The position numbers and the translations under genes were made by a program. The notes under the pieces are model-generated. The model searched no databases and had not been told where the DNA came from. It saw only the letters and a program-made list of their open reading frames with translations. 64,000 nucleotides of DNA, from the NCBI GenBank assembly GCA_037893225.1, contig JAZGUH010000284.1, positions 1 to 64,000 of the forward strand, written 5' to 3'. This document shows positions 15,820-64,000 of the stretch, piece after piece. Within the stretch, counting starts at the first letter, position 1, and every line of letters starts with the position of its first letter. Origin of the DNA: Hippasteria phrygiana (Eukaryota; Echinodermata; Asteroidea; Valvatida; Goniasteridae).

Positions 15820-15851
<32 letters not shown>

Positions 15852-43297: not shown

Positions 43298-43736
43298 GGC
43301 GATTGTGTAGTGTAGGGCCCTGTTCCCTATAAGGAATCAAAAATCCACTTTTAGGTTAATGGAATTGCCAAACTAGTTAGCGACATTACAAACCAACAGG
43401 TATGCCGTTGATAAAGGGCGGGGTTCTATTTTTTTAGGGAAATTTTGGGGTAAAGCGGCGATGAAGACGACAAAACGCAACTCGAAAATACAACTGGCAA
43501 TTACCGCGACGCACAGTAAACATGCAAAACCGCGTTGATTCGCGTGGCAACTGCCGTGAAGCGCGTAAGAAAATTGCATTTTCATCCGCAATAAACTGTT
43601 CAAAATGACAAAAAAGAGAGGTCAAAAGAATTAAGAGAAGTCTGCCTTAGGTTAATAAGTAATTTTGGAATGAGAAAAAATACCCTTGACTCTATTTTGA
43701 TCAAAACTAAAGAGGGCCCTACACCACACAATCGCC
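43298..43736. mobile_element. hAT-like MITE with 8-bp target-site duplication
   Basis: The ends GGCGATTGTGTAGTGTAGGG and its inverse (AGGGCCCTACACCACACAAT then CGCC) form about 24-bp terminal inverted repeats with one mismatch. GAAGTTGA flanks both sides (43290-43297 and 43737-43744). An 8-bp duplication is the signature of hAT-superfamily transposition. The interior has no transposase. Confidence 0.88.
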
Positions 43737-44183: not shown

Positions 44184-44534
44184 GTGGTAGCTACATAAAA
44201 CCAATTCATGGACCTCTGTTTATAAAAAAAATATGAATGGGATTTTTACTATAACCACTGAATTGAGACCAAAGTGGATAATTTTATTAAGCAAAAGTTG
44301 GCTTGAAATTCATTACTCGGACCCAGGAAGCCTTCCTTAGTGTAATACTGCAAATAAACAAGTGCATGTATGTATTACGGACATAAAAAATATACTTCAA
44401 TGCCATATCTTGAGGGGAAAAGGAATCCCAAAACGGAACAAATAGGACTTGATTTAGAATAGCCTAATAAAGATGTATACGGTTTAGGCTCAAGTTCCCT
44501 ACATGACCCCCAAAATATTTTGTAACTGAACCAA

Positions 44535-44724
44535 ACAACCAAACAAACAAACAAACAAACAAACAAACAACCAAACAACCAAACAAACAAACAAACAAAC
44601 AAACAAACAAACAAACAAACAAACAAACAAACAAACAAACAAACAAACAAACAAACAAACAAACAAACAAACAAACAACCAACCAAACAAACAAACAAAC
44701 AAACAAACAAACAAACAAACAAAC
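44535..44724. repeat. (CAAA)n microsatellite, about 190 bp
   Basis: Nearly pure ACAA tetranucleotide repeat with a few AACCAACC interruptions. On the minus strand it is open in all frames (CLFV repeats), which is an artefact. Confidence 0.97.
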
Positions 44725-45074
44725 AGTCAGACCATGTATGGATTGTGAGGACCGCCCTTTGGGCACATTTGTGACCTACAAAGTGGGGACCAGTTGGGAA
44801 CCTGTCATGAATTCCAGGACCGTTTTCTTTTCTTTTCTAAATGTTAATGATATATATCTGTTGGGCATTTACAAATGCCCTAATTACTTTGAATATCAAT
44901 TAACAAGAAATGTAATGAACATGAAGAGAAACCTTGCGCTTTCTGAATGGTGTAGAATAAAATGGGTTTATTAATTGTTCTATTATATGTTACATTTTAA
45001 TCACAACAGATATGCGTTTATTACCGATAATCTCACGGCCAATCAACCAATTATGTAAATATAATTTCAATCCC

Positions 45075-46083
45075 AGGACCAAACACAAACAACAAGGTAT
45101 GACTTCTGCAATCTCGGGACCAAACAAACAAAGAGTAAGGTATGACTTCTGCAATCTCGGGACCAAACAAACAAAGAGTAAGGTATGACTTCTGCAATCT
45201 CGGGACCAAACAAACAAAGAGTAAGGTATGACTTCTGTAATATCGGGACCAAACAAACAAAGAGTAAGGTATGACTTCTGCAATATCGGGACCAAACAAA
45301 CAAAGAGTAAGGTATGACTTCTGCAATCTCGGGACCAAACAAACAAAGAGTAAGGTATGACTTCTGCAATCTCGGGACCAAACAAACAAAGAGTAAGGTA
45401 TGACTTCTGTAATATCGGGACCAAACAAACAAAGAGTAAGGTATGACTTCTGCAATATCGGGACCAAACAAACAAAGAGTAAGGTATGACTTCTGCAATC
45501 TCGGGACCAAACAAACAAAGAGTAAGGTATGACTTCTGCAATCTCGGGACCAAACAAACAAACAAAGAGTAAGGTATGACTTCTGCAATCTCGGGACCAA
45601 ACAAACAAAGAGTAAGGTATGACTTCTGTAATATCGGGACCAAACAAACAAAGAGTAAGGTATGACTTCTGCAATCTCGGGACCAAACAAACAAAGAGTA
45701 AGGTATGACTTCTGCAATCTCGGGACCAAACAAACAAAGAGTAAGGTATGACTTCTGCAATCTCGGGACCAAACAAACAAAGAGTAAGGTATGACTTCTG
45801 TAATATCGGGACCAAACAAACAAAGAGTAAGGTATGACTTCTGCAATATCGGGACCAAACAAACAAAGAGTAAGGTATGACTTCTGCAATCTCGGGACCA
45901 AACAAACAAAGAGTAAGGTATGACTAACCCTTCTGCAATCTTGGGACCAAACAAACAAAGAATAAGGTATGACTTCTGCAATCTCGGGACCAAACAAACA
46001 AAGAGTAAGGTATGACTTCTGCAATCTCGGGACCAAACAAACAAAGAGTAAGGTATGACTTCTGCAATATCGGGACCAAACAA
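45075..46083. repeat. 43-bp satellite, about 23 units with higher-order structure
   Basis: Unit GTATGACTTCTGCAATCTCG then GGACCAAACAAACAAAGAGT then AAG. Three variants differ at the TGCAATCTCG, TGTAATATCG and TGCAATATCG positions. They occur in a repeating order close to A-A-(A)-B-C, so blocks of four or five units have been duplicated together. 43 is not a multiple of three and no unit carries a stop on the minus strand, so three long overlapping minus-strand frames exist. None is a gene. Confidence 0.97.
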
Positions 46084-46085
46084 TA

Positions 46086-47528
46086 GTTGATAGTTGCAGT
46101 AGTTATAAATTATAAGAGGGTAAAAATGCCAAAGTTCATCCAAATATTTCCATGAACTAAATCAAAAATAGTTCTTACAATCATGGATATTGCAATCTAA
46201 GTCTCAAATGAAATGTTTTTCTACGATCAAATGCAATCCTGGTTTTGGGAGTCAAAAAACATAAACGTTAACGTTATAAATTATCAATAAGATTGTTATT
46301 TGTTCATAAGTTGATCTGCCAGTACCATAATCCAAACAAACATATGCCTTATCTTATACGAAAGCCCTGGTCTATCTATACGTTTATCTTAACATATCAC
46401 ATTATTATTAAGATACCATTAACCTTGGATAACCTTCAGTTTGCTTTTGAAATACTCGGCTTCCGTATTACAAAATTAACGTTTACCTATGACTGATTTT
46501 TTAAATGCCAAAATAACTGTACATGTACTTGCTCACGTCAAGTTATCCTTTTCATGGTTCCTCTTTCAGTTTAAACGTATTAAACATGAATAAATCATCT
46601 ATTAAAATATCAAGATAAACAGGAACCTATTCAGTCATCTATTCAGTCATCAGTGAAATCCAGAAGAAAACCACTTTTCCTCGCTCGTGTCTTAGCAAAA
46701 AAAGACTGTTGCACAGTGTTACTTGTGTAACCTTCCAATATCTCTGGTTTAATACACTTTAGTTTGGAGTTTAAAAGCAAGGAATTTACATTGTAAATTT
46801 GGCCATTCTAAAAAAAATTACTCTTGTCTCATACCTGAGATTGATGCTATATCTAGATTAATCTTTAGTTTGTTAACAACAAATACATTTATTACCTCTT
46901 CTACATTCATTCCCATATACCCGTTTGATTAATTCCACTAAAATCCACGCACATCAGATAAGGCAGCATATACAAATAGCGCAAAATATTGTAAAACGTG
47001 TGTTAATAACAATAACTTTAAACGCTCTATTCTCTTTCAAACGTATTTGCGATATTTTTGCGAAGTGTTGGCAGATCACATTAATTTTTTTTAATTTTAT
47101 ATCAACATCGGTAATATCAAAGATAAAAGTTGCTTGATCAAAAACAAATAACAAATCCATGGTTTAGTGTCAAACACTTCTAACAACTGTAAAAGTCATT
47201 TTTTTGAATTTCTAGAAGCAAGATTTAGCGTGCATAATATACTAACACTGTAAACTGGTAACAATGGACTTCCATTGTTACTGCACCGTTTTTCTTTTGT
47301 TAGATGTTCATAGTGTAACCGGCCTGTTGGACATGTTCCTGAAACATTCGATTTGGAGCACACTTTCTTGCCTGATCAATAACTTAAGTTCCAATTACGT
47401 TATCTGTGCATTTACACTTAAGAAGAGTCAAAATCAATGTATCTTTATGGACTTACGGTACCCGAACACAGAAAAAAACACTGTTGCTTGACAAAATTAT
47501 TCTGATTTGGGGTTCAGGAGTCCTTTGG

Positions 47529-47575
<47 letters not shown>

Positions 47576-49456
47576 TTTCTTTTTTACTTATTTGGATTCC
47601 ATTTGACAAATGTTAACATCATTTGTGTGCTTCATATACAGAACGATCAATTAATGTATCATGCCTAACATTGCTTACAGAGTGTCTTTTACAGTACATT
47701 TCGTGAAATAGTTATCGTTACGTTCTGTTTCTTGTAACCGCTAAAAAGATTCTTGTAAATATCTGTCACTTTTACAATCAGCATCACGTATCCATTATCT
47801 GAGATTCCAATTTCAAAAGCAACCATTTGAGTTACAATCTCAATTATCCCTACATATATGTCGGATCAAAACAATACAAATATCATAACACTCTAACTTT
47901 AAATGACAAGATTTAAAGGCAATAGTAAACTGTTCAAATATAAACAGTGTTTATGTGGAGCCATACGCCCACTTGAAAGGAAATCCTGAAACCCAACTAA
48001 AGAAAAGTGCCCACACTTGGCGGTCGTAGGGGAGGTAGTGGTAAATTTTATTTCTCTCAGAGTCCAGAATTGGCTGGTGCTGAAAGGCGGACAAGCCGGA
48101 CAGTGCTGTCATATAATAGCGTTATCTACTTAGCCCTAACAGTCCTGAATCCTCCAATTTCAATATGATTTTCCACACGCCTAGGGAGTTAGGGTTAAAT
48201 CATTAAAGCCCGTTCTTACGGAAGAAACTTTGGGCCAATCGTATCCGCCAACTGTGTGTGGCCCGGCGAATGAGCTGCGCCGACGTATGTGCGCAGCGCA
48301 TGCATCATTAGGGACCGTCTTGTCTTTTGTTTACTTTGTAACAGCAGTGTACTCTGTAAATGTAAGGGACGGTCACCTAATACTTAGGGGACCACGTTCC
48401 ATAAACTAGATTAAACATAGCGTTTAATCTTCATATACTAGCAGAAACTCCAAATACATTTTCTGCAAGAAAAACAAATACACGTATAAGGCTTTTGGTA
48501 AAACATAATGAGAATTGAGATACATCAACTCAATCCTTAAAACAAAATCAGACATAAAACGAAAGCATTAGACTTGCCAATTCCTTAGATCCAGATAAGG
48601 CTGTACATCAAGTTGTGCATACATGTACTTCAACTGTATATTGTAATCGGAGCGCAGAGCAACGTCCTGAATTAAATCAGAACTTTGCCTCACATGTGGT
48701 AGCTAGTTGATATAATGTGACAACGAACACCACTGTCTAACAGTCGGTAAAAATCTTTGTGTTTCGAGCAAAGCAGATGTCAATGCACAGGTAAGTGAAA
48801 AAGTAGGGATTCAGAACCGTGTTAGACATAATGCTTTGAGGAAATAATAAATTACCAAGAGGCAACTCGGTGTTTGTAGAAGAAATGAAGGCCCTACAGG
48901 AAAATGGCGCATTTCAAAATTTAAGTATTGCATGGATTCTTTGTTGAAATTGACAATCGGGCAAGGTTAATAACTAATGCTGTAGCTGTACCATTGCTGA
49001 TCCCTGGGCAAATTGCAATGATCCGATTGTTCCAGACGATGCACGCAAACAGATCGCGTTTTGCAGGCAAGGAGTGATGCCCTTATGACAAATGCTTAGG
49101 TATGCAAATAATAGGTACTTGTAATACATTTAATACTTTGAGTGTTGCATCTGTAGTTGCATTTGTATTGGGTATGACAGATCCATATGTGTTTGCCTTT
49201 CTGGAGCCTTGGCTGAAGGCAACGAGGTCATGGAACCAGGAGTAATCAGCAAAGTTCTAGGTGGAGGGGCCAGAGAAAGTGCAGCAGTACATGTTATCTA
49301 AGCACAGAATTTGCTTAGAAAGTTTTTAAGTGATCATTTATTCAATTTCCAATACTTAATTTTTTAGACAATTCAAGAAAAGGTTTGTGATCACCCTATA
49401 ACACTTGTGACACTCTCTTAGTGTAATTATTATACCTTTCCTGCAACCAAATGTAA
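46086..49456. other. Intergenic stretch without recognised genes
   Basis: AT-rich. A (TTA)n microsatellite lies at 47532-47572. The region from 48.9 to 49.4 kb lies downstream of the minus-strand gene. No exon or element was recognised. Confidence 0.5.
49337..49342 (-). promoter_or_regulatory. Poly(A) signal AATAAA of the BRCT-recombinase gene
   Basis: AATAAA on the minus strand, about 115 bp after the TAG/TGA-type stop that follows LGVQS. Spacing and position are right for the 3' end of the gene. Confidence 0.55.
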
Positions 49457-51742
49457 CTATGACTGGACACCAAGTTCCATTTTCTTCAGGTTTGCTGTTG
49501 CCTTTTGATTGATGTTGTGAATTTTATTTCTCAGTTCCGTCCAAGATTTACCATGAAGAAGGTTGCCTCCTCTTTTTAGGATCAGCAAACACAATGACTT
49601 CCCAGGTGTATTCTTTGTTTTTAGAAGTGTTTTAACTTCTTTTTGGGCAAGAATGAATTGTTCTTGCTCTTTTGTCCACCTATTGTACTGCCGTTGTGTT
49701 CGAGCTACAGGCCTAGGTTTAACCACCTTCTTTGCATGGCCCTCAACTTTTGTTTTACGTGGGCCACCCTTCCTCTGGCTCCCAGTTGGAACATTGCTCT
49801 CAATGCCCATTTCTGGATTATCATCCTCAGCCTCACTTTCATCCTCTTCGGAACTGATAGATGAGAATGATTCTTCGGGTCCCAGATCCACCTCCTGAAG
49901 GGACTTGCCCTTAAATTGAGCCGTTTTCCCCTCCTGGGCAAGATTTAATATCTTACTCATCTTTGCTAAGAGCAGCGTTTCACTAGGGAGGCGGTAATAC
50001 TCACGATGGATACTCACATCGTGACCCATGTGATTTGCCAACTGCTCCAACTCGTTCTTTTTGAGATCTAGGAGTTGCGAAAGTGTGGCCAAGTGCTTTC
50101 TCAATTTGGTACAACGGACATTCTCCGGATGTTTCAGTTTTGGTACAGCTACAGCTGAAAGGTGGGCCATAACTTGGTACGCCCTTATTGGTGTTGAAGC
50201 GCTCTCACTACACCTAGAGAATAGGAATGTTTTCCCTATATTGTACTCAGCAAGCATATCCATGCTCTCTTTCAAATGGCGCGGGAGCAAAATTGGCACT
50301 CCTCGGCCACGTTTGCCCCGCACCATTACGAGAGTGAGCCTTTGGATAGCAACCCTCTCAGGTGCAGTTAATGACTCTAGTATTTCGTCATGCACAGGAC
50401 GCTGATGGTTTGTGCTCTCAGTATAGTGGTTCACCGTTAGTAGTTCTACCTCTTTGGGGCGCCTTCGATTGAACAGAATAACTTGGGCAAGGGTTACCTG
50501 AGCAAATTCTGTGTAGGTTGAGGCAGACATAGGTTGTTCTCTGATGACTGTCTTCAGATTTTCCTCTGTCTGCCTCAAAAACCGATTAAATTTTACGCAG
50601 TCTTCCGTAAGCGGCAGGATTTTGGGTGTCTGCCACATTTTTTCTTGTTGCTGACGTTGTGCTGATGCAGATACATGCACTCTCCATTCTGATTTTAACA
50701 AGTGCAAAAAATCATCCACAGCAGCCCCTTTTTCACGATTTTCAGATCGTATGTAGCTATTCTTTGCGACAGCTGCTAGCTCTGTGAGGGAAAAGCCTAC
50801 CCGAAGGGCAGTGCTGTATGCTTTGTATGACTGGCTACTGCTATCATAACCTGATAATTTGAGCGCTGCTTGAACAACAGTATCAAAAGATGATGGTTTC
50901 ACCATATCTGTTGCCTGGTGAATGCTGCTGTTTAGCTGTCTGGAGATGTCCAGTACCTTTGCTAGGGTCCTCATCTTCTCTCTGGCCTTATCGCTGCTTC
51001 TATTGGAATTGCTTTTACCAAGAACATGACCACCAACCTGCAGAATATCTTTGTCGTTTCTGACAATCAGTGATATTTGATCACTTTTCATATCCTGGAG
51101 GGCATTCTCCATTTGAACAGATAGACTGAATTTTGTTGGTATAAGCATTCGCCCTTCTTTCACGTGACTGTTGGTAGACTTGCAATCTTTACTTCTATAA
51201 GGGCATGTTTCTTTATGTTTCCACAGATAATGTCGATGGAAGTAGCCAAAGCAATTACTGCAAGGAATGTAATCATTTACGGTATGCTTTCCCTTTGAGC
51301 TGTCTTTTGGCCTTTTTCGGACGATGAGGTCATTTTCTTCATTTTGGTGAACTAATATATTATGTTCGTGATTTCCTAAGTTTCTGATATGTTGCCATTT
51401 TTGCCTTCTCAGTTGTTTACATTTATCTGGCACAGCTAGTGTTTCAGCAACTAGTTTTTCTTCTGAATGAAATCTTTTACAGTGACGTGGAAGTTTTCTT
51501 TGCCGTTCATTACAGTACAGGCAGTAACTATACTTTGGCACGCTCACATCCATTACATACATTTCACCTGAACCCGAAGCCTCTTTAATTTCATTTCCTG
51601 CATCACTCACTATATTTTCATCTGAGCATTTACGTTTACGTGGTTTCGAAGCAGGTTCGTCATCTTCTTCACCGCTACTATCAGACGTGTCCTCGTCATC
51701 TGACGGCTTGTAATCACTGTCCAAATCACTAGATGCACCACT
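49457..51742 (-). CDS. Terminal exon: zinc fingers, Crypton-like tyrosine recombinase, SANT-like tail
   Basis: 761 codons from SGASSDLDSDYKPSDDE to LGVQS. Numbering from the Leu/Met codon at 51724: C2H2 finger C68-C71-H81-H86; C2HC finger C155-C158-H170-C174; tyrosine-recombinase fold with R422 (RRRPKEVELL), R542 (TKLRKHLAT), H568 (HMGHDVS) and Y576/Y577 (HREYYRLP). The His of the usual HxxR box is Thr. An acidic stretch (SSISSEEDESEAEDD) and a C-terminal NRWTKEQEQFILAQKEVK ... KSWTELRNKIHN segment resemble a SANT/Myb-like fold. Related intronless-exon proteins occur in fish and invertebrates; they derive from Crypton-type elements. The intact frame suggests the exon is recent or under constraint. 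Confidence 0.85.
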   Translation of the reverse strand, partial: SGASSDLDSDYKPSDDEDTSDSSGEEDDEPASKPRKRKCSDENIVSDAGNEIKEASGSGEMYVMDVSVPKYSYCLYCNERQRKLPRHCKRFHSEEKLVAETLAVPDKCKQLRRQKWQHIRNLGNHEHNILVHQNEENDLIVRKRPKDSSKGKHTVNDYIPCSNCFGYFHRHYLWKHKETCPYRSKDCKSTNSHVKEGRMLIPTKFSLSVQMENALQDMKSDQISLIVRNDKDILQVGGHVLGKSNSNRSSDKAREKMRTLAKVLDISRQLNSSIHQATDMVKPSSFDTVVQAALKLSGYDSSSQSYKAYSTALRVGFSLTELAAVAKNSYIRSENREKGAAVDDFLHLLKSEWRVHVSASAQRQQQEKMWQTPKILPLTEDCVKFNRFLRQTEENLKTVIREQPMSASTYTEFAQVTLAQVILFNRRRPKEVELLTVNHYTESTNHQRPVHDEILESLTAPERVAIQRLTLVMVRGKRGRGVPILLPRHLKESMDMLAEYNIGKTFLFSRCSESASTPIRAYQVMAHLSAVAVPKLKHPENVRCTKLRKHLATLSQLLDLKKNELEQLANHMGHDVSIHREYYRLPSETLLLAKMSKILNLAQEGKTAQFKGKSLQEVDLGPEESFSSISSEEDESEAEDDNPEMGIESNVPTGSQRKGGPRKTKVEGHAKKVVKPRPVARTQRQYNRWTKEQEQFILAQKEVKTLLKTKNTPGKSLCLLILKRGGNLLHGKSWTELRNKIHNINQKATANLKKMELGVQS

Positions 51743-54700
51743 CTGGAATTAAATCAAAATGAATCCGAAAGAAGCTTGAAATAGTCCTTATCCAGAGCGA
51801 AGGATTTTGACACTAATCCAAATATCTCTTAAACTGTGCCCTGCTTGTTTAATGCATGTAAAACAGGTCTCCATCCAGTAAAGACTTCCCCACTTATTAG
51901 TGCATGTGAGTGAGGATGTTGCTTATCATTACAATCATTTCATTCCATTGTTTTTGATTCTCAAATTTTCTCAATATTTTTGCACCCTGCAACTGGGTTC
52001 CCGATAAACTGCTTTTGATGTCTTTAATTAAAAAAGAATAGATTCACGAACGACTGCTAAGATAATGAACTATTGCTAATATTCACCAGGCTAAACATTC
52101 TCATTTTCTTACATATACATGTTCACAGGCATACCTCGTCATGATATGTCTCTTTTCGGCCGGCATTACTCTCCTCATCACTGACAGCACTAACCTAGTT
52201 GAGAAGCACAAAATATCCATCCAACTATAAAGGTTTAATATTGCCTCTAAAATAGGAAAATATATATTCTATGGTCTATACCATGATATATTTTTCCAAC
52301 ATATACAGGCACCGAAGAAAATTAAGTATTTCTTTCCAATACCACATAACACAATATTCACATTGGCCGCAGGACTAATAATTTTCCCTTCCATAGAAGA
52401 AAGATGACTTTAAATAAAATGTCATGATTTTCAATGCTTATGTGTTCTCATTAAGACATTTTGGCAAATCATTGCACTGGTTATTTTAGTGTATTTTTAA
52501 TGCTATAACAGTACCCATATTCTGTTTGGAAAGTTTATGCATGTGTACATGAAAAGGACGCTCCAACGAATGTTGAAATTCATACTACACTTTTCAATTG
52601 TTTTGTATAGTTCAATTTGAATCCATTAAATACGTTAGTCGTTATGTTAAAACTCCCAAAGGTTAAAATTATGTACCTCTTCTATGACGTCCATGGATCC
52701 ACAAGGCTTTTGTCCATTTTTGGTGGCGAAGTTGGTAGATCTAGATGATGGTTGCTTCTTTTTGAAGGCTAAGTCGGGGGATGTGGTAGTGCTTCGTCCC
52801 CTTTCGTCTACCAGTGATTCCCCTGATCAAATAAACATAATGATTTTTAGACAAAGGAAACATGTTAAACTTCCTCCATTGGATTAAGATAAATGTACAA
52901 ACATGTTTATATTTATTCATGAGGAGAATGATTGTTTTTCTGCATTTGGGAAACATAAAATCAATACATGTACATTTCGGAAATAGGGAGTGAAACTGAT
53001 TAAATTAGTCTCATCTATATTAGTATAGCTACTTATTCTCATGAGCGGTATGTATATGTTTTTTAGCCAAAATGGATCCGGTACCTCACCACACTGGTGA
53101 GTTTTTTGTCTTTGGATTAAAAGTTAAACTAACAAAACCAGCAGAATAGTATTACTGTTAATGAATAAAATCAATGTTGAATCAAACAACTAGGTTTCCT
53201 TAAAGGTTAAAATTGGACATGATACAGGTGGACAACTTACCATCATCAAACAGGAGACTATAAACCTGAAGTGGCTGGACGGTATATGAAGAAATACTAT
53301 CTAGAAGCCATTCTCCGGTGACAACGGGCACCTCGTATTTTGCATACAGATCTACAAAACAAAAGCATTAGTTAAGATATTATTTTCACACTCACCTTTA
53401 TATTTTCAGAAATTTAACCATGTTTAAAATCTTTGGAACTCTATTTCTATAAACTCCAATAGCATTGTAGTCAGGGGCCAATTTCATAGAACTGTTAAAC
53501 ACAAACATTTGCTTAGCATGAAAATGTCTTGCTTATTAAAAACAGGTTACCAGCCAAAAGTCCATGTAATTTTCATGCTAAGCAAACAACAGCTGAATGC
53601 CAGTCAAAAGCAATATTCCACACATGGACATCTGGCTGGTAATCCAGTTTTTATCAAGGAAGCATTTTCAAGCTAAGCAAATTGTTGTGCTTTTAATAAC
53701 AGCTTTATGAAATTGGCCCCTGGTCACATTAAACAGTGTATTAAACTATTCGTATTTCAAGAGACATATATACAATGCAGAAGATTGCTGGAAGTTTGCC
53801 TAACGCTAACAGAACATCCAATTTGTCTTTTGGTGATGCGACTCTAAATCTATCATGCCCTATACATGGAACGAGACAGCTCAATGTTAAGTAGGTTCCC
53901 GCACCAGCCAAATTATTTCATTTTATTATTACTCAGAAATAGGAACACATTGATAAAAATGTTTATATTTGAACAGGTGCAAGCAGAGCAAGCTACTGCT
54001 TACCATTTATTTTGCTGTCATCCCCGTCAACTAGAGGACAGTAGATGATGACACGCTTGTGACTTGATGAAGTGCCAACGAATTTGTCCACAGAATCCAG
54101 TGTTCTTGCTCCACACAAACTAAGCAGATATTTCGCATCATCTGTAGAAATTAAGGTACAGCAAGACTGTTTTTAGCATCAAACCAGCACCCTGGAAAAA
54201 TTTTCAGTAAACAGTGGAATTAGTTCTACACATTTACCCAATATTTGATGCTAGAGTATAAAAACTGCAGAGTCTTCGCTATTAAACATCAAATAATTAT
54301 GTATTCTGTATTATGATGCACTGCCATCCATTTTTATAAGCATTTATTAATGCGTCATAAACACACTATTTTTAGAAATCTTTTACATCATTGATCACGT
54401 CCGAACATTCCAAAAATATTAATTGGGAGATGCACATTTGGAAACATGATACAAATTTTAAAGATATGATTTGGTATCTGCTGCATTAAAGTGTACCTTT
54501 GGTTATGTACTGACGTTTGCCGACAACATAAATTTCATAGTTTTGAAGCAGTGGCATTTGGCTGTTAACTCTACACAGTCTGGCTTGTTGTGGCCCCTTT
54601 GTTTGGTCGTCTGCGCGAACTTCATAGTTATCTTCTTTGACGAGGAAGCCCCTCCTCAGAGACATTTCCACCCCTTCGAAAAAATAGACGCTTTTTAAAA

Positions 54701-57700
54701 GGAGTATCTCTTTTGTGAATAACCTATGTGTTACAACAAAATGTAAGTGATTAATAAACTAATACAGGCCTGTGATTGAAGCTGAATTGATTGGGAATTC
54801 GGGGGAGGGTTGTACTATTTATAAACCAAACAGAAATACGAGGGCGGGTCTTAAGACTTTTACAGTTTCAAATTAAATCTGAATTCCAAATTGTCTAAAT
54901 ACTTGAGCCCATGATCTTGTTGAAATTTTGTGTGCAGAGGAGGACAAGCTTTGGAAGACTCTTTCAAACCACTTTACTTACATTTGTAGCTTACAACCCA
55001 AATTCCGGCAGCAACTCCAAGAAAGAACTTAAGCGATTTGGCTTTGATAATATTATCATCATCTGCAATCAAAACATAAAACAAAATATATTTATATAGC
55101 TTTCTTGATGCACATGGATTGCTCGCAAGGAGTAGGTCTGTGTCTTCGTCAGATGCTCTTTTTGTAAGAACTAATGTCATCTATGGATGGTTAGTGCTGT
55201 CGTTTGTTAGTGCTGTCACACTAGTATCTAATCTTGAAAGAGCAAGGTCAATAAACAATAAAGGGTATCATTGTATTAAGGTTTCTAAATAAACAGTTTC
55301 ATTACCTGCATCAATGATGACATGAGTGGTGGAACTGCGAAAGTTTGTTGTATACTGACATTTGGTATTCTGTGCCAGCTTCTTAACCTGTTCCCGCATA
55401 GAGGAGACAAGGGATGTAAGAACTGTTGAAAGAACACAGCTGTATATGCAGAAATATTTAACGGCATCAGTTATGAAATTCTTCCTCCAAACATGAGTTG
55501 GAATAATACGTTAAGCAACAAAATAATACATGGCTTAGAATTAAACAGCTTTATCGTTAAAAGCAACTGTTACAACTTACTAATTCGTCCAAATTAAGTA
55601 GCGTTGTGACCAATGATAAACCTGTTGAAGAGGAGGTGCTGGAACATTTCCCTGAAGCATGTGCTCTTGTTGAAGAGGAGGTGAGGGGACACTCCCCTAA
55701 AACACGTGCACCTGTCAAAGAGGAGTTGCTGGGACGTTCCCCTGAAGCACGTCCACCTGTTGAAGAGGAGGTGCTGAGACCCTGCCCTGAAGCACGTCCA
55801 CCTGTTGAGGAGGTGGGGGGACCCTGCCCTGAAGCACGTGCAACTGTTGAAGAGGAGGTGGGGGGACCCTGCTCTGAAGCACGTGCACCTGTTGAAGAGG
55901 AGGTCGGGGGACCCTGCTCTGAAGCACGTGCACCTGTTGAAGAGGAGGTGCTGAGACCCTGCCCTGAAGCACATGCACCTGATGAAGAGGTGCTGGGACG
56001 CTCCCCTGAAGCACGTGTACCTGTTGAAGAGGTGTTGTTGAGACCCTCCCCTGAAGCATGTGCACCCGATGAAGAGGAGGTGCTGGGATGCTCTACTGAA
56101 ACACGTGCACCTGTTGAAGAGGTGCTGGGACGCTCCCCTAAAGCACGTGCACCTGTTAAAGAGGAAGTGCTCGGATGCTCCCCTGAAGCACGTGCACCTG
56201 TTAAAGAGGAGTGGCTGGGACGTTCCCCTGAAGCATGTGCACCTGTTGAAGAGGAGGTTGGGGGACCCTGCCCTGAAGCACGTGCACTTGTTGAAGAGGA
56301 GGAGCTGGAACGCTCCCCTGAAGCACTTGCACCTGTTGAAGAGGAAGTGCTGGGAAGCTTCCCTGAAGCACGTGCACCTGTTGAAGAGGAAGTGCTGGGA
56401 CGCTCCCCTGAAGCATGTGCACCTGTTAAAGAGAAGGTTCTGGGACACTCCCCTGAAGCATGTGCACCTGATGAAGAGGAGGTGCTGGGACGCTCCCCCG
56501 AAGCATGTGTATTTGCTTGTTCTGTGTAAGGTGAATAAAAATGATATATGTTCACTTACACTCTAAGTACTTAATGTAAATAGGTAAAGATTTGGCTGAG
56601 GTTTTCTTATAACAAAACTGGATTACATTGTAGGCCTACCTTTAAAACGTGTAATGCATTCTTCAATGGATGGCCTTGTTTGTTCAATTGGGCAGATCAT
56701 CCTCTCAATCAGATACTTCAAAGTTGACCACCTTCCAAGATGAATTAACGTATATCTTCCTATCTTTAGGTTTCGGACAACTCCCTCTGGCTCATTTGTA
56801 TATGGAGATGTTGTTTCGTGGGGGATGTGGCCATCACTCAGAATGTAGTATATAAGGCTGCCTGTGACCTGATAGAATTAGGAGTTATTTTGAATAATGA
56901 ATGCTACACTAGCCCCTGACATTTTGCACAATTGACTCAGTGGAATTAAAGCTATGACACTAATTTCAGTTACTGGTGAAGTGAGTCATATAACTTAATG
57001 CTGAGAACATTGCAAAGTTGTATACGTTTATAACTATATTTTATAGCTTCAGTTTATTTGATACCAAACACGAAGGGATAGGGTTAATAAATTCCCTATT
57101 CCCCATTTTTTTTCATGATGCACTTCCCCATACAATTTTTAATATACGCACAGGTTGATGGTAACTGCAGACCTTTGCGGTACACTAGCTATGTGTGATT
57201 TGTGTTATTGTTTTTTCCTCACATGGTATTCATCATAGAAATAGAGAGTGGTGGGGGTTGGTTTATGGAGAGGCAATGTCAATACTGTTAACTCATTCTA
57301 AATCTACGGCATGATAGCACTTTTCTAAACACATAGTGTTACCTATTCAGTACATAATGTATAAAATGTTTGGTGCACGTTGTACATGTACATTACCTGA
57401 ATATCCGATGACTTCTTGTATTTCACCACAACTCCAGGGAGGCTTTCCACAGACATCCAACAAAATGTTCCCATAGTCTGTGTGTAAAGAGTTGTTTTCC
57501 CCATAAGCTGACGGGAAACTCCAAAGTCTGCAATCTTGACATTACCGCTGGTGTCTGTCGGTAAAATAGGTGAACTAAAGTAGATTGTTCTTAATCGATC
57601 CAAATGGACTACACATAAAGTAATTTTTAAAAAGACGTTCTACATAAAAGACAAGATGACATCCAACGTGCCTAAATACAGCATTTTGATCTTCCAAAAA

Positions 57701-60357
57701 TCTTGAAATTTGGTGTGCCCTTAAACATCATTTTTTTTCAATGTACACTACAGATGGCTTCAGTCACACTTTTAGGTGGCATTTGTGCATTTAAACCAGT
57801 GACACAAAAAACAACAACAACAACAACAACAGGAATAGCAACACATAAAATATTTCCTAATTACCAATCAGTGCATTAGCAGGCTTGATATCTCTATGAA
57901 TTATCCCTTGTCCATGTAGTTCTTGGAGGCCACTCAGGAACCCAATGCACATATTCTTTCTTCCTTCCTCTGTGCGATGTTGAACCGCGAAGGCGATCTG
58001 ACCTTCAATGACCTCCATAATGTTGAATTCACACAGCTCTGATACAAAGTATGTGAAATCGTCGTCTTCCTCTAAACATAATGTATTCAGGACATGTTTA
58101 AAGTTGCAGCCTTGCAGATCTCTCCAGATTTGTTTTTCTTTTCCAACAAGATCAGAGCTCACCCTTTTGACGACAACTGGAAGGTTGTTGAATTTGCCTA
58201 AGAATAGTTTGGAGCCATTGTTGCCGTTAGCTATGACCAGCTGCCGACTGTATGACATTTTTCCAACATGCCTCTTCTGGGCTGCTTCAATCCCGTTCCA
58301 CTTTTGAAGCAGTTGCAGCCATCTTTTCCCCTGGAATGAAAATTCAATGAAGATATTTAACATTCGGCACTATGATGCATCCATGAAAAATAGCAAAAAC
58401 ACTCTTTAGATATTGATTTGGAGGATGGAAGTTAAAACGCGTCGAAGCCATTATTTTTCAGAGCTCTTTCAACCCAGAAGTTGTGAAAGAAGTTGCTTCA
58501 TTTGTTTGTATTAATGCAGGGAATAGTGTTTCCATATTAGGTGTCAGTTCCTTCACAAGAAAGTTAGTGAACGATCAGTGTCTGCAATTTATTTCAAGAT
58601 ACATACCCGGTACTGCTCACAGCTGGGATCCTGATCAACATTCTGGCAAAAGAAAAAAAATGCAAATTGTTTTTAGTACACAGGAACATTTCATTGGATT
58701 TCTGACATATTAGGATATTTGCATCCAACTGACCAAAATAAAAACTATGACAAAGGGAACTGAATAGAAATTGATGAACAACCGCCATGAAAATATTTTT
58801 AACACCCCTTCATTTCAACTAGACAAGTCAGTTGGTTGGCCCTTCCAAACTCCTTTAAGTGAGAAACGTCGTCGTAAAATAATTACACCTGACAAATGGC
58901 TTGCCCAATCAAATTCAGGGACCCGAACAGTCAAAGTTCCTACAACAAACACAAGCATCAATGCTTAACCTGTTGAGCTACTACATATGCAGCACAAGCG
59001 CAATATCATTTTGACGACATAAACAATCTGATAACATCAATTCAAATAATCCTTTTCCCTACCCAGCTATAAAAAGCGGCTGCTGTTTTGTGGAGGAAAC
59101 ATTGTTTTAATCTCTGACGCAAAGCTAAACAAACAATGTCAAATTATTGCTTTACCTTCTTTCTCCAAGGAACATTGTCATCTCCATAATCATATCGGAG
59201 CTCTTGTCCTACAGCAATGTCTAGCAAAGCAAAGAGGCAGAGACATGGAGTCCCGTCCACAGACACAACCTTCATTTGGCAGTTTGCATCTTTCTTTGGT
59301 AAATCGTTTACCATGCGGCAGGCACCATTGGAATTAGTTCCATCAACACTACAAGAAAATATATGGAAAATGCACCACTTCTTAAAAGTATTGTATTATG
59401 TGTATTAATCCCACATATGAAGAGCAAGGCAAACAAATGAGATGACTGCTGAAAAAGGAAGCAGTTATTTTCTCTGTATCTATACTGTCCCGTTGAAAAA
59501 CATTACCACGGGAGGAAGCTTACCCGTGTGAAAGCAGCAGCAAATAAACAAGGTTTAGAAGGATGTGTAAGAGTTTTAGAAACTAAGTAAAGTTTATATT
59601 ATCTTTGCAATTTATATTTGCACTATGCATTGTCAAATTTCACTACTCAACAAGTCTGCAAGGAACAGCATTCTCTAACCAATAGGGCAGGAGAGGGGGG
59701 GGGGGTTCTTTAGGCATGTGCTTATACACATGTACAGTGGGTTTTTTCTATGAACCCCACTATAATTAAAGCTTACCAAAGTGCAATTCCCTTGTCTTGA
59801 AAAAAGAACAAGAAGCTCCCTTTGTCCTCTGAGTAACTGTCATGGCGGTGCTCTCCTTCCGCCTTGGTGGTTACTTCCCCCCGATACTGAAGAAGGAAAT
59901 CGCCCTTTGAAAAATCCTTGGTTGTGAAGGTTCCGCATCCTATCAAAATTATATTTGTACAACTGTTACCCAAAGACCTAGACAGGCTACAACAGCTGAC
60001 AAATCATTCTAGGGAATAACTAATTGCATATAGGATGAACTGCACTTGCATTTTTGTTGTTTGAGTTTCAACATGCAGTTTGAATGAATTAAATTATTAT
60101 AAATGAAATTGTTCGTATTGTTTGAATGTGCCGAGTATATTGTACGTTCAATCAAAAATCAATTTAAATAGCACGGGGAAGCAAATAACACATAAAGAAT
60201 CAGAACGAACAGTGTTCAATTTAGAGGTTTCGATATAAAACTTACCAATTGTATCATTTATGTATCGTACTTCAAAACCCTCATTGTCTTGTTTACTTCT
60301 GCAGACACTGCATGCCTGCTGCAATGGGGTCTGTCTTGCAGTCCTCAAGCGAGGCAT
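49457..60357 (-). CDS. Multi-domain gene: SET, IRE1-like kinase, Ser/Thr repeat, tandem BRCT, tyrosine recombinase (span)
   Basis: Fifteen minus-strand exons. Predicted order: residues 1-156 a KMT5A-type SET domain; 157-168 a microexon linker; 169-452 an IRE1/RNase L-type kinase; 453-766 a 15-residue repeat; 767-975 tandem BRCT; 976-1043 an acidic linker; 1044-1804 zinc fingers, a tyrosine-recombinase domain and a SANT-like tail. All joins from the first exon through the repeat exon agree in phase, as do all joins from BRCT to the end. The join between 55581 and 55422 lacks one base. No stop-plus-poly(A) signal or start separates the two halves, favouring one gene, but two genes remain possible. 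No TIRs or target duplications bracket the locus. Confidence 0.6.
52135..52194 (-). CDS. Short acidic linker exon
   Basis: 20 codons, VSAVSDEESNAGRKETYHDE, between CTCAACTAG and GAG|GTATGC, phase 0 on both sides. It continues the acidic, serine-rich region into the next exon. Confidence 0.6.
52677..52822 (-). CDS. Linker exon after BRCT
   Basis: 48 codons of polar, basic sequence: ESLVDERGRSTTTSPDLAF, KKKQPSSRSTNFATK, SMDVIEE. Acceptor TTATTTGATCAG, donor GAG|GTACAT, phases 2/3 to 0. No domain is recognised. Confidence 0.65.
53241..53351 (-). CDS. BRCT 2, final exon
   Basis: DLYAKYEVPVVTGEWLLDSI then SSYTVQPLQVYSLLFDD. PVVTxEWLLDSI with its invariant Trp is the classic C-terminal BRCT signature, matching BRCA1 PVVTREWVLDSV. 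Donor GATG|GTAAGT, phase 1. Confidence 0.92.
53472..53722. mobile_element. MITE with CAGGGGCCAATTTCATAGA termini, inside a BRCT intron
   Basis: 251 bp, ends CAGGGGCCAATTTCATAGA and TTTATGAAATTGGCCCCTG, inverted over about 27 bp. The interior repeats TTTGCTTAGCATGAAAAT in both orientations, forming an inner palindrome. It lies in the intron between BRCT2 exons at 54004 and 53351. Related to the element at 20807-21067. Confidence 0.88.
54004..54141 (-). CDS. BRCT 2, middle exon
   Basis: The join makes KDDAKYLLSLCGARTLDSVD, then SSSHKRVIIYC, the helix (LxxLVxLCGAxV) and third strand of BRCT2. Donor AATG|GTAAGC, phase 1. Confidence 0.88.
54497..54673 (-). CDS. BRCT 1 end, inter-BRCT linker and BRCT 2 start
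   Basis: The T+GG codon restores the invariant Trp (SYKW). VEMSLRRGFLVKEDNYEVRA parallels the SIKERKMLNEHDFEVRG end of BRCA1 BRCT1. A linker follows (DDQTKGPQQARLCR), then LLQNYEIYVVG opens BRCT2. Donor AAAG|GTACAC, phase 1. Confidence 0.88.
54982..55062 (-). CDS. BRCT 1, second exon
   Basis: The join makes Asp: DDDNIIKAKSLKFFLGVAAG then IWVVSYK. This is very close to the TLKYFLGIAGGKWVVSY core of BRCA1 BRCT1, including the Lys that contacts phosphoserine in BRCA1. Donor AAAT|GTAAGT, phase 1. Confidence 0.9.
55306..55422 (-). CDS. BRCT 1, first exon
   Basis: Acceptor TCTTTCAACAG. In the BRCT frame it reads VLTSLVSSMREQVKKLAQNT, then FRSSTTHVIIDA, matching the first strand, helix and TTHVV strand of BRCA1-type BRCT1. 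The first codon needs one base from the previous exon. The donor is GCAG|GTAATG, phase 1. The other open frame through this exon hits a stop in the next one. Confidence 0.8.
55581..56521 (-). CDS. Repeat exon: 20 units of a 15-residue Ser/Thr-rich motif
   Basis: Acceptor TTCACCTTACACAG, in phase with the kinase. It encodes 313 residues, mostly ASGERPSTSSSTGAR-like units of 45 bp. Three units are 42 bp, so every length change keeps the frame. After the last unit, LSLVTTLLNLDEL runs to TTA|GTAAGT, phase 0. The product should be a disordered, phosphorylatable linker. Reverse-strand and other frames over it are also open because of the unit composition and are not genes. Confidence 0.75.
56640..56868 (-). 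CDS. Kinase exon 3: C-lobe
   Basis: 76 codons from VTGSLIYYILSDGHIPHETT to MICPIEQTRPSIEECITRFK. SDI-Q-V-T-G-S-L-I-Y-Y and RMI-x6-RPS are the alpha-F and alpha-I landmarks. In IRE1 and RNase L this is followed by a KEN ribonuclease domain; here the frame runs straight into the Ser/Thr repeat. Donor AAAG|GTAGGC, phase 1. Confidence 0.85.
57397..57554 (-). CDS. Kinase exon 2: DFG and activation loop
   Basis: Phase join makes LID-TSGNVKIADFGVSR. DFG is intact, then TQTMGTFCWMSVESLPG (APE-equivalent SVE) and KKSSDIQ, ending CAG|GTAATG, phase 0. The activation loop has several Thr and Tyr residues. Confidence 0.88.
57813..57833. repeat. (CAA)n microsatellite
   Basis: A short run of ACA/CAA triplets within the intron just after kinase exon 1 (minus strand). 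Not coding. Confidence 0.8.
57865..58330 (-). CDS. Kinase exon 1: N-lobe and catalytic loop
   Basis: 155 codons, GKRWLQLLQKWNGIEA to NALIG. A glycine-rich stretch (NGNNGSKLFLGKF) precedes the Lys of VVVKRV and the acidic helix EKQIWRDL. DDFTYFVSELCEFNIMEVIE and GIIHRDIKPANALI follow. The DDxFxYFxxELC segment is typical of the IRE1/RNase L kinase clade. The HRD Asp is present. Donor ATTG|GTAATT, phase 1. Confidence 0.88.
58607..58642 (-). CDS. 36-bp microexon linking SET and kinase
   Basis: Twelve codons, NVDQDPSCEQYR, between TTTCTTTGCCAG and CGG|GTATGT, phase 0 on both sides. Its phase fits both the SET exon before it and the kinase exon after it, which is the main evidence that SET and kinase belong to one transcript. 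Confidence 0.65.
59156..59348 (-). CDS. SET domain exon 2: catalytic half
   Basis: A TG+T codon makes Cys: ALCVDGTNSNGACRMVND, then PCLCLFALLDIAVGQELRYD and YGDD. CVD-(x)n-R-x-V-N and the catalytic YDYGD are the second SET core. The usual NHS is ND here, as in KMT5A-like family expansions. The post-SET tail is short (VPWRKK). Donor AAG|GTAAAG, phase 0. Confidence 0.88.
59777..59939 (-). CDS. SET domain exon 1
   Basis: It joins the previous exon in phase (G plus GA). CGTFTTKDFSKGDFLLQYRG is the SAM-binding GxG and first core of SET, followed by EDKGSFLFFFQDKGIAL, as in KMT5A-type H4K20 methyltransferases and their many invertebrate and fish relatives. Donor TTTG|GTAAGC, phase 2. Confidence 0.85.
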
Positions 60358-60370
60358 ATTGGCCGGAACT
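60246..60370 (-). CDS. First recognised exon: pre-SET segment
   Basis: The acceptor is TTCCATTGCAG. The likely start ATG (60355-60357) gives MPRLRTARQTPLQQ, then a C-x-x-C pair (ACSVCRSK), FEVRYINDTIG and a G|GTAAGT donor, phase 1. FEVRYI matches the LEVKYI strand that begins SET domains of the KMT5A-like family. Upstream 5' UTR exons are not visible. The frame is also open for nine codons before this Met, so the start is not certain. Confidence 0.7.
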
Positions 60371-61650
60371 CTGCAATGGAACACACAACTTTTAAGTTTG
60401 GAGTAAGGAGGAAGCTAACATTTTGTGTGATATACTAGATTCTTTATAGTTAACATTTATTCTATTCTTGTTTTTCTTCTTGTTTACATGCATTCTATAA
60501 CTTGGCCAATCAATCAATAAATTAGGGAAAAATTACTATTTTTCTTTATTCCCAGTGGGAAAAATATTAAAAGAGTCACAACAAAAATCAACGCAGTGTA
60601 ATAATTGATTTTTATGCGAATTTAATAAAGGAAATACTGCCATAGTAAATGACAACCATATAGTGATTAAGGGTGTGTGCAATTGAATACTTTACCTAAT
60701 TACAATGGAAGGTTAACTACAAAGATAGAGGTTATGACTAGATAGAGGTTATGATAAAGGTCATTTGGCGGCCTGTTATTGTAAAACATAGGAACAATTA
60801 AAGTGAAAGTCACGTACCACCAATTTGTTTTTGTTATGATTTCAGAGTATAGGGATTAACCTGTATTGCAAATTAGATTATTAAAAAATTTTTGCACGTT
60901 TTCGCTTGTAATACAATACAAGAATGCCGCTTAATTATAATACGGACATCTAAAACATTACTCCTGGGCCCTAACCTCCTTCAGCATGATCAGCAAGTGA
61001 TCATCGAGAGATGTTTCAGTCAGAAAAAAGGAGCCTATATTTTAATTCGTGAGGACCATTGCGTCCCAAACGTGATCCTCAGATTTTCCTTCAGTGGTGA
61101 AATGATAGTATGAAAATATTTATCCGAAAATCGACACGAAATGAGTAGCTTAAAGCAATTTTACACTATCAGAATTATAATAAAGATTCCAACAAGTTAA
61201 ATCTAAATATAGCTTTATTTTCTTGCTGCTTGTGTATACACTTTCCATTTTTATGTATTTATTTGTCAAATTTGTATCGTGACCCAGCGGACCACAATTT
61301 TCTGTGTGACCGTTGTCATGTCGGGGAGCGCAGAACTAGGTTGGTCCACGTGGCCTGCAGTCCACGTACCATGCTTATTATACCATAAATTGTACGTACA
61401 TTTACGTACATGTACATGTACATCTGGCCGTTAATTCAGACTGTTTATGGCAGCTCTTCTTTGCAATGTTTCTTTCAGTTTAGTCAGTCCCGAAAAGTCA
61501 GATATATTTGTAGGGAATGTTAATACCTTTCGATCGAAAAATTACATTACGGCCGGACCCTTTGCCCGATTTCGCCAAATCTGAGGACATCGCTTTCGTG
61601 ACTTTCGGATTGAATTTAAGTAGGCCTATATTAATTTTTCATTCGATTTT
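60371..61650. other. Upstream region of the minus-strand gene
   Basis: About 1.3 kb that should include the promoter and any 5' UTR exon of the SET-first gene. I see no clear core promoter motif, long frame or repeat. ACGTACATGTACATGTACAT near 61400 is a short palindromic run. Confidence 0.4.
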
Positions 61651-61659
61651 TTAAGGTAA

Positions 61660-63540
61660 GGTAACAAAATAACGAATCCTAAGTTAAACAAAAATTATTG
61701 AGGAATATCTTGAAAAATGTGCGCAAACTTTAAGGGGAATACACCTGTATACTGCTCAGCATAAGTGCACACAATAGATACATGATGGAATATGTTCCAA
61801 ATAAAATCTGATTCTTTTTTTATTTAGAAAACAATATTTTGTTGAAGGTCTGGTATGGCAATTTCAATGTATACTGAAGTCCAACACTGCGATAAGAATA
61901 TAATTGCCCCTACAGGTCGCATATCCTATGCCTAGAAATCTGTGTTAAGTGTATGATCTGTCAATGACTTAAAGCTTTGCTCTTGCATCCTGGCACTTGA
62001 CCGCCACCTCTCATAACCCGCGTGACCCTAACGTGGCCCCTGCATGCCATAGGAGTAAGGGCCATGATATCATGAGAATTTACCAGTTTGCTAAAAAAGG
62101 TACAGCCTTATTGTGCCCTTCGAAAAATTCTTTCAGTAAATTTTGGAACTATCTTTTGCACGTCTCAATCTCTAGAAAATAGGTTTTTTTACAGTGTCCT
62201 ATGTGTCGCTGCCATATAACCCTAACTTTATATGGCCGGGGCGTACTATAGTGTTTTCATTCGTTAAGAGCTTGCATGACTTAAATTTGGAGATTTTTCC
62301 ACAATTTCTCGGGCCGCTGTTATCGGAACATGGAAGTTCATTTCTTTCATTACTTTACTCGGATGATTATGATTTTTTAACTATTGTTTTTGAATTGAGT
62401 AAAGCATAACCTGTTGAACTCGTAGTATTTAACAGGCATCAAATCTAAAGCTAACCGTCGTACTCACGGTGAAAATAACATCTAGCGTACAAAGTTGATG
62501 TACCATACGTCTGAACTGTTTGACCACCATTGACTGTATATACCATTAACCACGATCATTAATTATTGGAAAAAATAACCAAGCATTTTAATGGCAAAAT
62601 CTTTGTTTCGCAAGTACATGTAAGTAACAGAATTCACGGGTAATTTTCCTCTTTGCCCGGAGCAAAAACAAATGAGCACACCACTGCAATTTTTTTATTT
62701 GTGACTGCAGAGAATCGGAAAACTTTGGAACAATTAAAACTCGATGAGGAAATGTTTCAAAGGAAATCGGCAATTAATTTTAACCGAAAATCCACTTTTA
62801 TGATGAAGAAAATGGTTATTTTGATGAAGGTGTATTCAAGTTCAATACTGCGGTAGGAATAGGCATTTTCCTTATAACTGCTGAAATGTTTTTAAAGGAA
62901 TAATGGAACACAAATAACGAATATGAAGTTCAACAAAAATTGAGGAACGTCGGTGAAGGGCAAAACCTAATATTGAGGAACGTCTTGAAAAATTTAATTA
63001 AAGGACCTTCAATTACACCACGGTAATTATACTGTTAAGCATAAATGCACACAATGGATATATAATGGGGAATATGTTCCAAATAGTATTTTCAATTATT
63101 TTGATATAGAAAAAGAAACTTATTTTCTTGAAGGTCTGGTATGCCATTTCCCATGTAAACGTCTGGTACTCAAGTTCAACACTGCGGTGGTAATATATAA
63201 CCCCAGGTAACGTTTCCTATGCCTAAAAATATTTGTTTAATGTGTGACCTGTTTATTATTTTTAGCTTTTTTCTTGCATCCTTACTTGATGCCCTTGACC
63301 GGCCACAAGTCACATGACTTTAATGCGACCCTTCTCCATATGCAAAAGGGCCTTGATATCATAAGAATTTACCCCATTGCTAACAATTTGCAGCCTTATT
63401 ACTTCGAAAAATAACTTCTGTAAATTTTGGAACTATCTACAATGCACGTCTCAATTTAAAGAATAATTGTTATTTTTATTTCAAATTTTCCTGTGTGTTG
63501 TCGCCGTATTACTCTGCATTATATTACGGTCGTACATAGC
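61660..63540. repeat. Degenerate direct duplication, about 1.27-kb offset
   Basis: 61660-62230 and 62920-63540 share, in order, GAGGAA(T/C)(A/G)TCTTGAAAAAT, GCACACAAT(A/G)GATA, GAATATGTTCCAAATA, GAAGGTCTGGTATG, AGTTCAACACTGCG-like words, TTCTTGCATCC, TGATATCAT(G/A)AGAATTTACC and AATTTTGGAACTATCT. Divergence is high, so this is an old tandem duplication or two old copies of one repeat. Confidence 0.8.
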
Positions 63541-64000
63541 GAAACCAGCAATATAGCGCTGTTCAGAAAATGCCTCCTAATAATCCGGCAAGTTTTCCGC
63601 CGGAGAATTATAATTTACATAAAATTGTACAATTCATTGGGACCCTGTTCATGTGCGCATTACGCAAGCATTGATATTTGACCAGAATGGTTCGATATTC
63701 TGAGTTAGTCTTGCCTGCTGTCGATGTGGACTATCCGCTTTTCTGGACCTATTAATCGAAGATTTTTAAGTAGAATGGTCTCTTTGCAGTTTGTTACATA
63801 ATCATGATAATAATGAATAGCATAAGTTTGATTGCTGTATTTAGAACGATATGCTTTAATAATTATGCAACATCTCCAAAAATGTACAAATACCAAAGTT
63901 AGGTGGATTTTAAACCCTCCGCATTTCTCCCCTTCTGACTACGGCCCGCGGTGCGTTTTATTTTAGTTTCATTTCATAGCTAAGAACCCGGGCTTAAATT
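63541..64000. other. Window end, no recognised features
   Basis: AT-rich. No coding similarity, no inverted-repeat ends. Confidence 0.4.

Follow-up and report, generated by a model that had tools for sequence, protein, structure and literature searches.

A dispersed ~20.6-kb element of Hippasteria phrygiana with a predicted SET–kinase–BRCT–tyrosine recombinase protein

We analyzed a 64,000-nucleotide stretch of the Hippasteria phrygiana genome (contig JAZGUH010000284.1, positions 1 to 64,000; hereafter the window, on the contig that we call C284), which contains most of a mobile element of ~20.6 kb. The element is dispersed in five copies, one of them on a circular contig, and carries a 16-exon gene predicted to encode in one chain a KMT5A-like SET domain, an IRE1-like kinase, a BRCA1-like pair of BRCT domains and a tyrosine recombinase of Xer/Cre fold. 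We put at roughly 0.78 the probability of the reading that this predicted four-module protein of 1,792 aa likely moves the element by cutting it out as a circle and integrating it at CAAA repeats. Several observations carry this reading: (i) The copies share both ends. (ii) Their flanks differ. (iii) Paralogous targets of one copy are empty. (iv) In one copy the two ends are joined end to end. (v) The reading frame is open in three copies. Together with the CAAA-rich targets, observations (i) to (iv) support one of two possibilities raised in the initial annotation of the window, namely that modules for chromatin, kinase and phosphopeptide-reader functions are carried by a mobile element.

Ends and copies of the element

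The left end lies at position 44724, the first base past a CAAA tract, and the last 1.3 kb of the element extends beyond the window; CAAA repeats also follow the right end. The element starts with CAGTCAGACC on the left and finishes with GGTGAGTA on the right, after which comes ACAAACAAAC. The recombinase exon, searched against the window's own assembly (944 Mb, 1,285 contigs), matched the window locus and loci on C408 and C658, with 100% displayed for each, and a broken copy on C45 (98%). A search with the kinase added C968, bringing the copy number of the locus, a point raised in the initial annotation, to five. C408:440449-461170 corresponds to C284 44684-65402 at 100%, with two substitutions and one 3-base gap over 20.64 kb. 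Identity of C658 to C284 is 98.5% in the longest piece (14.7 kb) and 94-97% in shorter pieces; relative to the window element, C45 is at 94-98% in its main pieces and C968 at 94-99%.

All five copies have the same two sharp ends, and their flanks differ except for a sequence to the right of C284 and C408, a likeness that we traced to a repeat family. A left-end probe found the five copies at 92-100% and two more matches at 74-75% (C196 and C932), and a right-end probe found five copies. When the BRCT pair was searched exon by exon through the whole genome, matches at E ≤ 0.001 occurred in the five copies only. We set aside the possibility that the near-identical copies are alleles: the flanks differ, and the right flank of C45 and the non-repeat parts of the C658 flanks were each found once in the genome. 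A partly diploid assembly could still, strictly speaking, be the source of the near-identical copies.

Short direct repeats, ACAAACAAAC / CAAA, are present at both ends of C284, C408 and C658 and in the junction of C968, and in C45 at the right end only. Self-comparison of the element revealed no terminal repeat besides these and no long terminal repeats. Outside the exons there are 72 open reading frames (ORFs) of at least 50 aa. The three longest are minisatellite frames; no reverse transcriptase or DDE transposase was found in the element, 9 of the next eleven ORFs giving no Pfam match of any kind at E ≤ 0.1 and the remaining, unscanned ORFs being 81 aa or shorter. The 16-exon gene is the only recognisable gene of the element. 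A 43-bp minisatellite near the left end is a possible recombinase-binding array. Two inverted, 87% identical copies of a sequence of ~430 bp, which is bounded by terminal inverted repeats and is probably a miniature inverted-repeat transposable element, lie at window 43298-43736, just outside the element, and at contig positions 64322-64751, inside it.

CAAA targets and empty sites

Long CAAA tracts lie on both sides of C284 and C408 and short ones on both sides of C658, and the C45 copy has CAAA on its right and (ACAG)n on its left. The repeat whose (CAAA)n tail holds the C408 copy is present in at least 23 long copies, this one among them. The sequence CTCGCT(C/T)GTT(CAAA)n occurs without the element in all six of the other repeat copies that were read (C1095, C504, C429, C143, C192 and C822). 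These reads are 115-121 bases each; that of C1095 stops inside the tract, but the contig has no left end of the element. The empty sites are paralogous rather than allelic, and genome searches with the flanks found no allelic empty site. In window 11955-12280, a 178-bp repeat with several GGGACC motifs resembles the sequence to the left of the C45 copy and might be what is left of the end of some related element.

A copy with fused ends

In C968 (18,061 bp) the right end runs directly into the left end at GGTGAGTACAAACAAACAGTCAGACC, and the last base of the contig continues into the first, so that the contig is circular. An excised circle and a head-to-tail array would both account for it, as a tandem array yields the same contig. 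C968 lacks the counterpart of window 48766-51659, which is nearly the entire recombinase exon, as well as a portion of exon 7 in the kinase. An inverted repeat at the circle junction was no better than in shuffled sequences (363, 455 and 657 of 1000 reach it at three arm lengths), and we therefore claim no binding-site symmetry.

Gene model

The gene occupies 60357-49457 on the minus strand and is spliced to 5,379 nt with its sole stop at the end. Only GT-AG sites were used, and all 15 joins are consistent in phase; because the exon sites were picked to fit, phase agreement by itself is weak evidence. The domains recognized in the initial annotation stand in the order given there, in a continuous spliced frame, and its canonical splice sites and agreeing phases hold throughout. 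Its join counts, five before the repeat exon and six after the first BRCT exon, differ from ours, which are seven up to the repeat exon and eight after it. The single gene proposed there had a gap at 55.58-55.42 kb, which is now closed: exon 8, the repeat exon, ends in GAATTA before the donor gtaagt at 55581 and is joined to an acceptor at 55387 (exon 9). The first strand of BRCT1, GLSLVTTLLNLDEL, is also encoded by exon 8 and aligns with the corresponding strand of a BRCA1.

Naive joins between exons 10 and 11 and between the repeat and BRCT1 clash in frame, and alternative acceptors were adopted. The acceptor at 54673 for exon 11 joins WVVSYK to WVEMSLRRG, which aligns with BRCA1, and with the corrected joins the BRCT1 alignment is free of an insert present in the initial model. 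An assembly error at the exon-10 donor was rejected, as C284, C408, C658 and C45 have the same bases.

The model is supported by an Acanthaster planci protein, by the sister copies and by the higher Pfam scores of the spliced chain. The annotated A. planci protein P0055 (LOC110986593 isoform X2) contains SET, kinase and BRCT parts and the start of the exon-16 linker (GASSD...), and it has neither the recombinase nor the Ser/Thr repeat. Looking 8 residues to either side, its alignment with the gene is free of gaps at seven of the 15 joins (1, 2, 5, 6, 9, 10 and 11) and has 1-3 gap positions at joins 3, 4, 12, 13 and 14; joins 7 and 8 border the Ser/Thr repeat, and GASSD after join 15 is common to both. 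The splice sites and open frame are kept in three genomic copies, which is support beyond the choice of sites.

We consider it unlikely that the element instead holds two head-to-tail genes, one for SET, kinase and repeat and the other for BRCT pair and recombinase, with no single chain. The single chain is read from genomic sequence alone; P0055 and C968 have the SET-kinase-BRCT parts without the recombinase, and a scallop protein (P0193) has repeat, BRCT pair and recombinase without SET and kinase. Against two genes, exon 8 holds the first BRCT1 strand, has no in-frame Met and has an acceptor in phase with kinase exon 7, and the A. planci protein unites SET, kinase, BRCT and the linker start in one annotated chain. 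Intron 12 contains an imperfect 250-bp palindrome (window 53472-53722), a stretch that is ~0.9 kb longer in C968.

Domains of the predicted protein

In a Pfam scan of the spliced chain with the repeat shortened, SET (4e-12), Pkinase (7e-28), BRCT (5e-11) and BRCT_2 (4e-9) all lie above the Pfam cut-offs, and BRCT in the unspliced frame reaches only 0.004. The best Protein Data Bank (PDB) match of the SET part is KMT5A (SET8; E 7e-23). Its YDYG motif is shared, but the NH of KMT5A is ND in the window and in all nine aligned relatives, which places the domain outside KMT5A as defined. The NH motif of the SET fold is essential. Because ND stands in its place, methyltransferase activity is uncertain. 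The kinase part matches IRE1 (4e-19), with HRD and DFG present, but the Pfam scan of the chain contains no KEN RNase domain, the exon after the kinase being the repeat, so that the chain is not an IRE1, a kinase-endoribonuclease. Likewise, the BRCT pair matches BRCA1 (1e-18; query with an earlier exon-11 start), and the scan contains no RING domain, which in BRCA1 is N-terminal, so that the chain is not a BRCA1.

The recombinase exon has no sequence match in Pfam or the PDB. Its AlphaFold model matches the XerH, XerA and Cre fold, which points to an Xer/Cre-like recombinase, and the residues R, K, R, H and Y, in conserved columns of the family alignment, are kept. The helical piece at the C terminus of exon 16 appears Myb/SANT-like by eye.

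Relatives in other species and in this genome

We ran three protein searches, each of which scored only ~8,000 candidates sharing most words with the query; one gave 120 of its 219 matches. Two of them gathered 73 recombinase-family proteins. In a profile scan, a SET domain was present in 15 of these, from echinoderms and fish: sea urchin P0005, sea cucumber P0176, P0179 and P0180, Patiria P0177 and ten fish records. A kinase piece was present in two (killifish P0012, E 5e-26, and Garra P0010, 1e-5) and a BRCT pair in one, scallop P0193 (2e-24), where it follows a repeat. The initial annotation knew of no protein with this combination of domains. That has to be narrowed for the partial combinations, including the SET-kinase-BRCT protein of A. 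planci; for the full set, no four-module protein outside the window's genome was among the candidates scored and the matches given.

A recombinase tree was built from 71 of the 73 proteins, with P0015 (scores equal to those of P0014) and P0192 (short span) left out and no named Cryptons included. The window pairs with P0001 in a clade of ten (100/100) whose three named members are echinoderms and which includes Strongylocentrotus purpuratus P0005; the kinase-bearing fish and the BRCT-bearing scallop fall in other branches. The killifish kinase piece scores 94 bits against that of the window versus 45 bits against an Engraulis ankyrin-kinase and, by eye, shares an insert with the window, which suggests one origin of the kinase. 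For the scallop BRCT pair, the window and BRCA1 are about equally close (72 versus 71 bits; 88 to A. planci). Another fused module appears in Tubulanus polymorphus P0192, to which Pfam assigns OTU (protease) and Phage_integrase.

Related recombinases also occur elsewhere in this genome. Among the 59 of 301 candidates that were scored, near-equal scores go to at least 34 loci (e.g., C361:881976-883640, C179, C367 and C760), whose related recombinase ORFs are 588-691 aa long and 33-34% identical to that of the window; this family is separate and probably spread recently. C728:55000-74300 is a cluster of broken recombinase copies with ~47-65% identity to that of the window. C364:309200-323900 is an older relative with broken frames. 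Its matches to the kinase (~40%), the second BRCT (35%) and the recombinase (44-64%) keep the order and shared strand of the window gene, and no SET match below E 1 was found. At C292:1061437-1067575, SET exons are followed by an open recombinase frame (~31%), with kinase and BRCT not detected, making it an in-genome SET+recombinase relative.

Integrity, selection and movement

The full frame and the splice dinucleotides are kept in C284 (1,792 aa), C408 (1,792 aa) and C658 (1,791 aa), and the frames of C45 and C968 are broken. With the repeat left out, C284 and C658 differ by 9 synonymous (965 sites) and 3 nonsynonymous (3,505 sites) changes, a ratio of 0.09. The recombinase part accounts for 7 synonymous and 1 nonsynonymous of these and the SET+kinase+BRCT part for 2 and 2, too few to judge. 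The ratios are 0.24 for C284/C45, 0.16 for C284/C968, 0.20 for both C658/C45 and C658/C968, and 0.95 between the broken copies C45 and C968.

The preserved recombinase bears on whether another enzyme, such as that of the abundant 646-aa family, moves the element in trans with its own recombinase as a passenger, which we regard as rather improbable. The 34 or more loci with a related recombinase lend themselves to this explanation, as does C968, closed despite having no recombinase of its own. Yet C968 could equally have been mobilised by an intact sister, and the window recombinase keeps its conserved catalytic-type residues and shows the 7 synonymous and 1 nonsynonymous changes given above. 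A host gene with a domesticated recombinase, spread by segmental duplication and not by its own recombinase, is very improbable: a long, intron-rich gene under purifying selection between intact copies, an A. planci relative and a right-hand flank repeat common to C284 and C408 would suit it, but both ends are shared by all five copies, the flanks differ, one copy is closed end to end and all six sister copies read of the C408 target repeat are without the element. The host protein with a captured recombinase, offered as the other possibility in the initial annotation, is not favoured.

For a mobile element driven by its own recombinase, a mechanism can be proposed by analogy. As in the scheme put forward for Cryptons, strand exchange by the recombinase would take place in the short ACAAACAAAC repeat found at either end, and the element would be released as a circle and then inserted into CAAA repeats. 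The front end of the protein may couple recombination to host chromatin. Predicted targets for phosphorylation by the kinase are Ser/Thr sites, most obviously those of the Ser/Thr-rich repeat within the protein itself; the BRCT pair could bind a phosphorylated partner or the repeat, thereby gathering recombinase subunits or bringing them to host chromatin; and the SET domain might methylate a histone or another protein at the site.

The chances are about even that the element represents an undescribed animal superfamily of tyrosine-recombinase transposons, in which the recombinase is joined to a methyltransferase-like writer, a kinase and a phosphopeptide reader, with its own chromatin and phospho-signalling control of site choice, a kinase-recombinase link that is shared with fish and may be ancestral, and a circle captured in the assembly. 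A literature search, judged by titles and abstract openings, found no publication on such an element in the collection searched. The ends, the junction and the empty targets are concrete substrates for testing how a eukaryotic tyrosine-recombinase transposon moves, and also bear on whether a chromatin writer, a kinase and a phospho-reader can travel as part of a transposon. A set of fish and echinoderm SET-domain proteins now labelled 'uncharacterized' would come to be seen as likely transposon proteins or descendants of such proteins.

Features of the window

Elsewhere in the window, Tandem Repeats Finder (TRF) identified a 21-bp unit in two oppositely oriented arrays (33394-33949 and 34389-34805). 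By eye, the frames at 41707-42576, 15054-17139, 12238-12888 and 24152-24772 resemble retroelement reverse transcriptases, and that at 27447-27806 resembles an exon of a guanylate cyclase catalytic domain.

Table 1 Coordinates of the element and of the exons of its gene (window positions unless stated otherwise).
Feature	Position	Strand	Content	Basis
Mobile element, ~20.6 kb	44724..64000 in window, right end contig position 65337	- (gene strand)		Five copies share ends
(CAAA)n tract	44532..44723		Left boundary, target-like	TRF, end sequences
Minisatellite, 43 bp x 23	45068..46083		Near left end, units with GGGACCAAACAAACAAA	TRF, motif positions
Exon 1	60246..60357	-	Start codon, SET	Spliced model
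Exon 2	59777..59939	-	SET	Spliced model, Pfam SET
Exon 3	59156..59348	-	SET, YDYG end	Spliced model, Pfam SET
Exon 4	58607..58642	-	Linker	Spliced model
Exon 5	57865..58330	-	IRE1-like kinase N-lobe, HRD	Spliced model, Pfam Pkinase
Exon 6	57397..57554	-	Kinase, DFG	Spliced model, Pfam Pkinase
Exon 7	56640..56868	-	Kinase C-lobe	Spliced model, Pfam, A. planci alignment
Exon 8	55581..56521	-	45-bp x 20 Ser/Thr-rich repeat, first BRCT1 strand	TRF, spliced model
Exon 9	55306..55387	-	BRCT1	Spliced model, Pfam BRCT
Exon 10	54982..55062	-	BRCT1	Spliced model, Pfam BRCT
Exon 11	54497..54673	-	BRCT1 end, inter-BRCT linker, BRCT2 start	Spliced model, Pfam
Exon 12	54004..54141	-	BRCT2	Spliced model, Pfam BRCT_2
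Exon 13	53241..53351	-	BRCT2 end	Spliced model, Pfam BRCT_2
Exon 14	52677..52822	-	Linker	Spliced model
Exon 15	52135..52194	-	Linker	Spliced model
Exon 16	49457..51742	-	Acidic linker, two zinc-finger-like motifs, tyrosine recombinase, helical C-terminal piece	Spliced model, conserved columns, AlphaFold (AF2) model

Comparison with known systems

By its features, the element appears to be a Crypton-like transposon equipped with a writer-kinase-reader front end. In Kojima and Jurka 2011 (PMC3212892), circle excision is proposed for Cryptons by analogy, the fungal Cryptons, which were the first found, have short direct repeats at their ends, sea-urchin, insect and cnidarian elements are called YR-only, and animal Cryptons are without a C-terminal domain or terminal repeats. 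The element shares with Cryptons (CryptonA and CryptonI, tyrosine-recombinase DNA transposons of animals) a tyrosine recombinase, no other transposition enzyme seen and no long terminal repeats, and further resembles them in its short direct end repeats (fungal Cryptons), a proposed circular intermediate and deletion derivatives. It differs in its length of ~20.6 kb, its 16-exon gene and the joining of the recombinase to SET, kinase, BRCT, zinc-finger-like and C-terminal parts; where PMC3212892 has earlier animal elements as recombinase-only, in three copies here the recombinase is intact and forms one predicted chain with three signalling or chromatin modules. The initial annotation called the recombinase Crypton-type, which fits its apparent way of working. 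Membership in CryptonA does not follow, and we do not file it there because none of the 16 Pfam families matched by 37 family members (E ≤ 0.1) is named DUF3504 or after a DUF3504 gene, a comparison by profile only.

Annotated proteins that join SET and recombinase, known here from echinoderms and fish (e.g., S. purpuratus LOC105438115 and Patiria LOC119733959), have the same N-terminal SET subtype (ND), a zinc-finger-like region and a recombinase, and in those 15 neither the kinase nor the BRCT pair was detected. A. planci LOC110986593 X2 has the SET domain, IRE1-like kinase, BRCT pair and exon-16 linker start in common with the gene and differs in having no Ser/Thr repeat and no recombinase. 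Two further proteins match the chain only in part, Argopecten irradians P0193 (repeat, BRCT pair, acidic linker, zinc finger and recombinase) and Nothobranchius furzeri P0012 (kinase C-lobe, zinc finger and recombinase), and both predicted gene models may be truncated. Fungal Starship elements are large, are moved by a tyrosine recombinase and carry many separate cargo genes; the present element is like them in size and recombinase, whereas its extra modules are fused to the recombinase itself.
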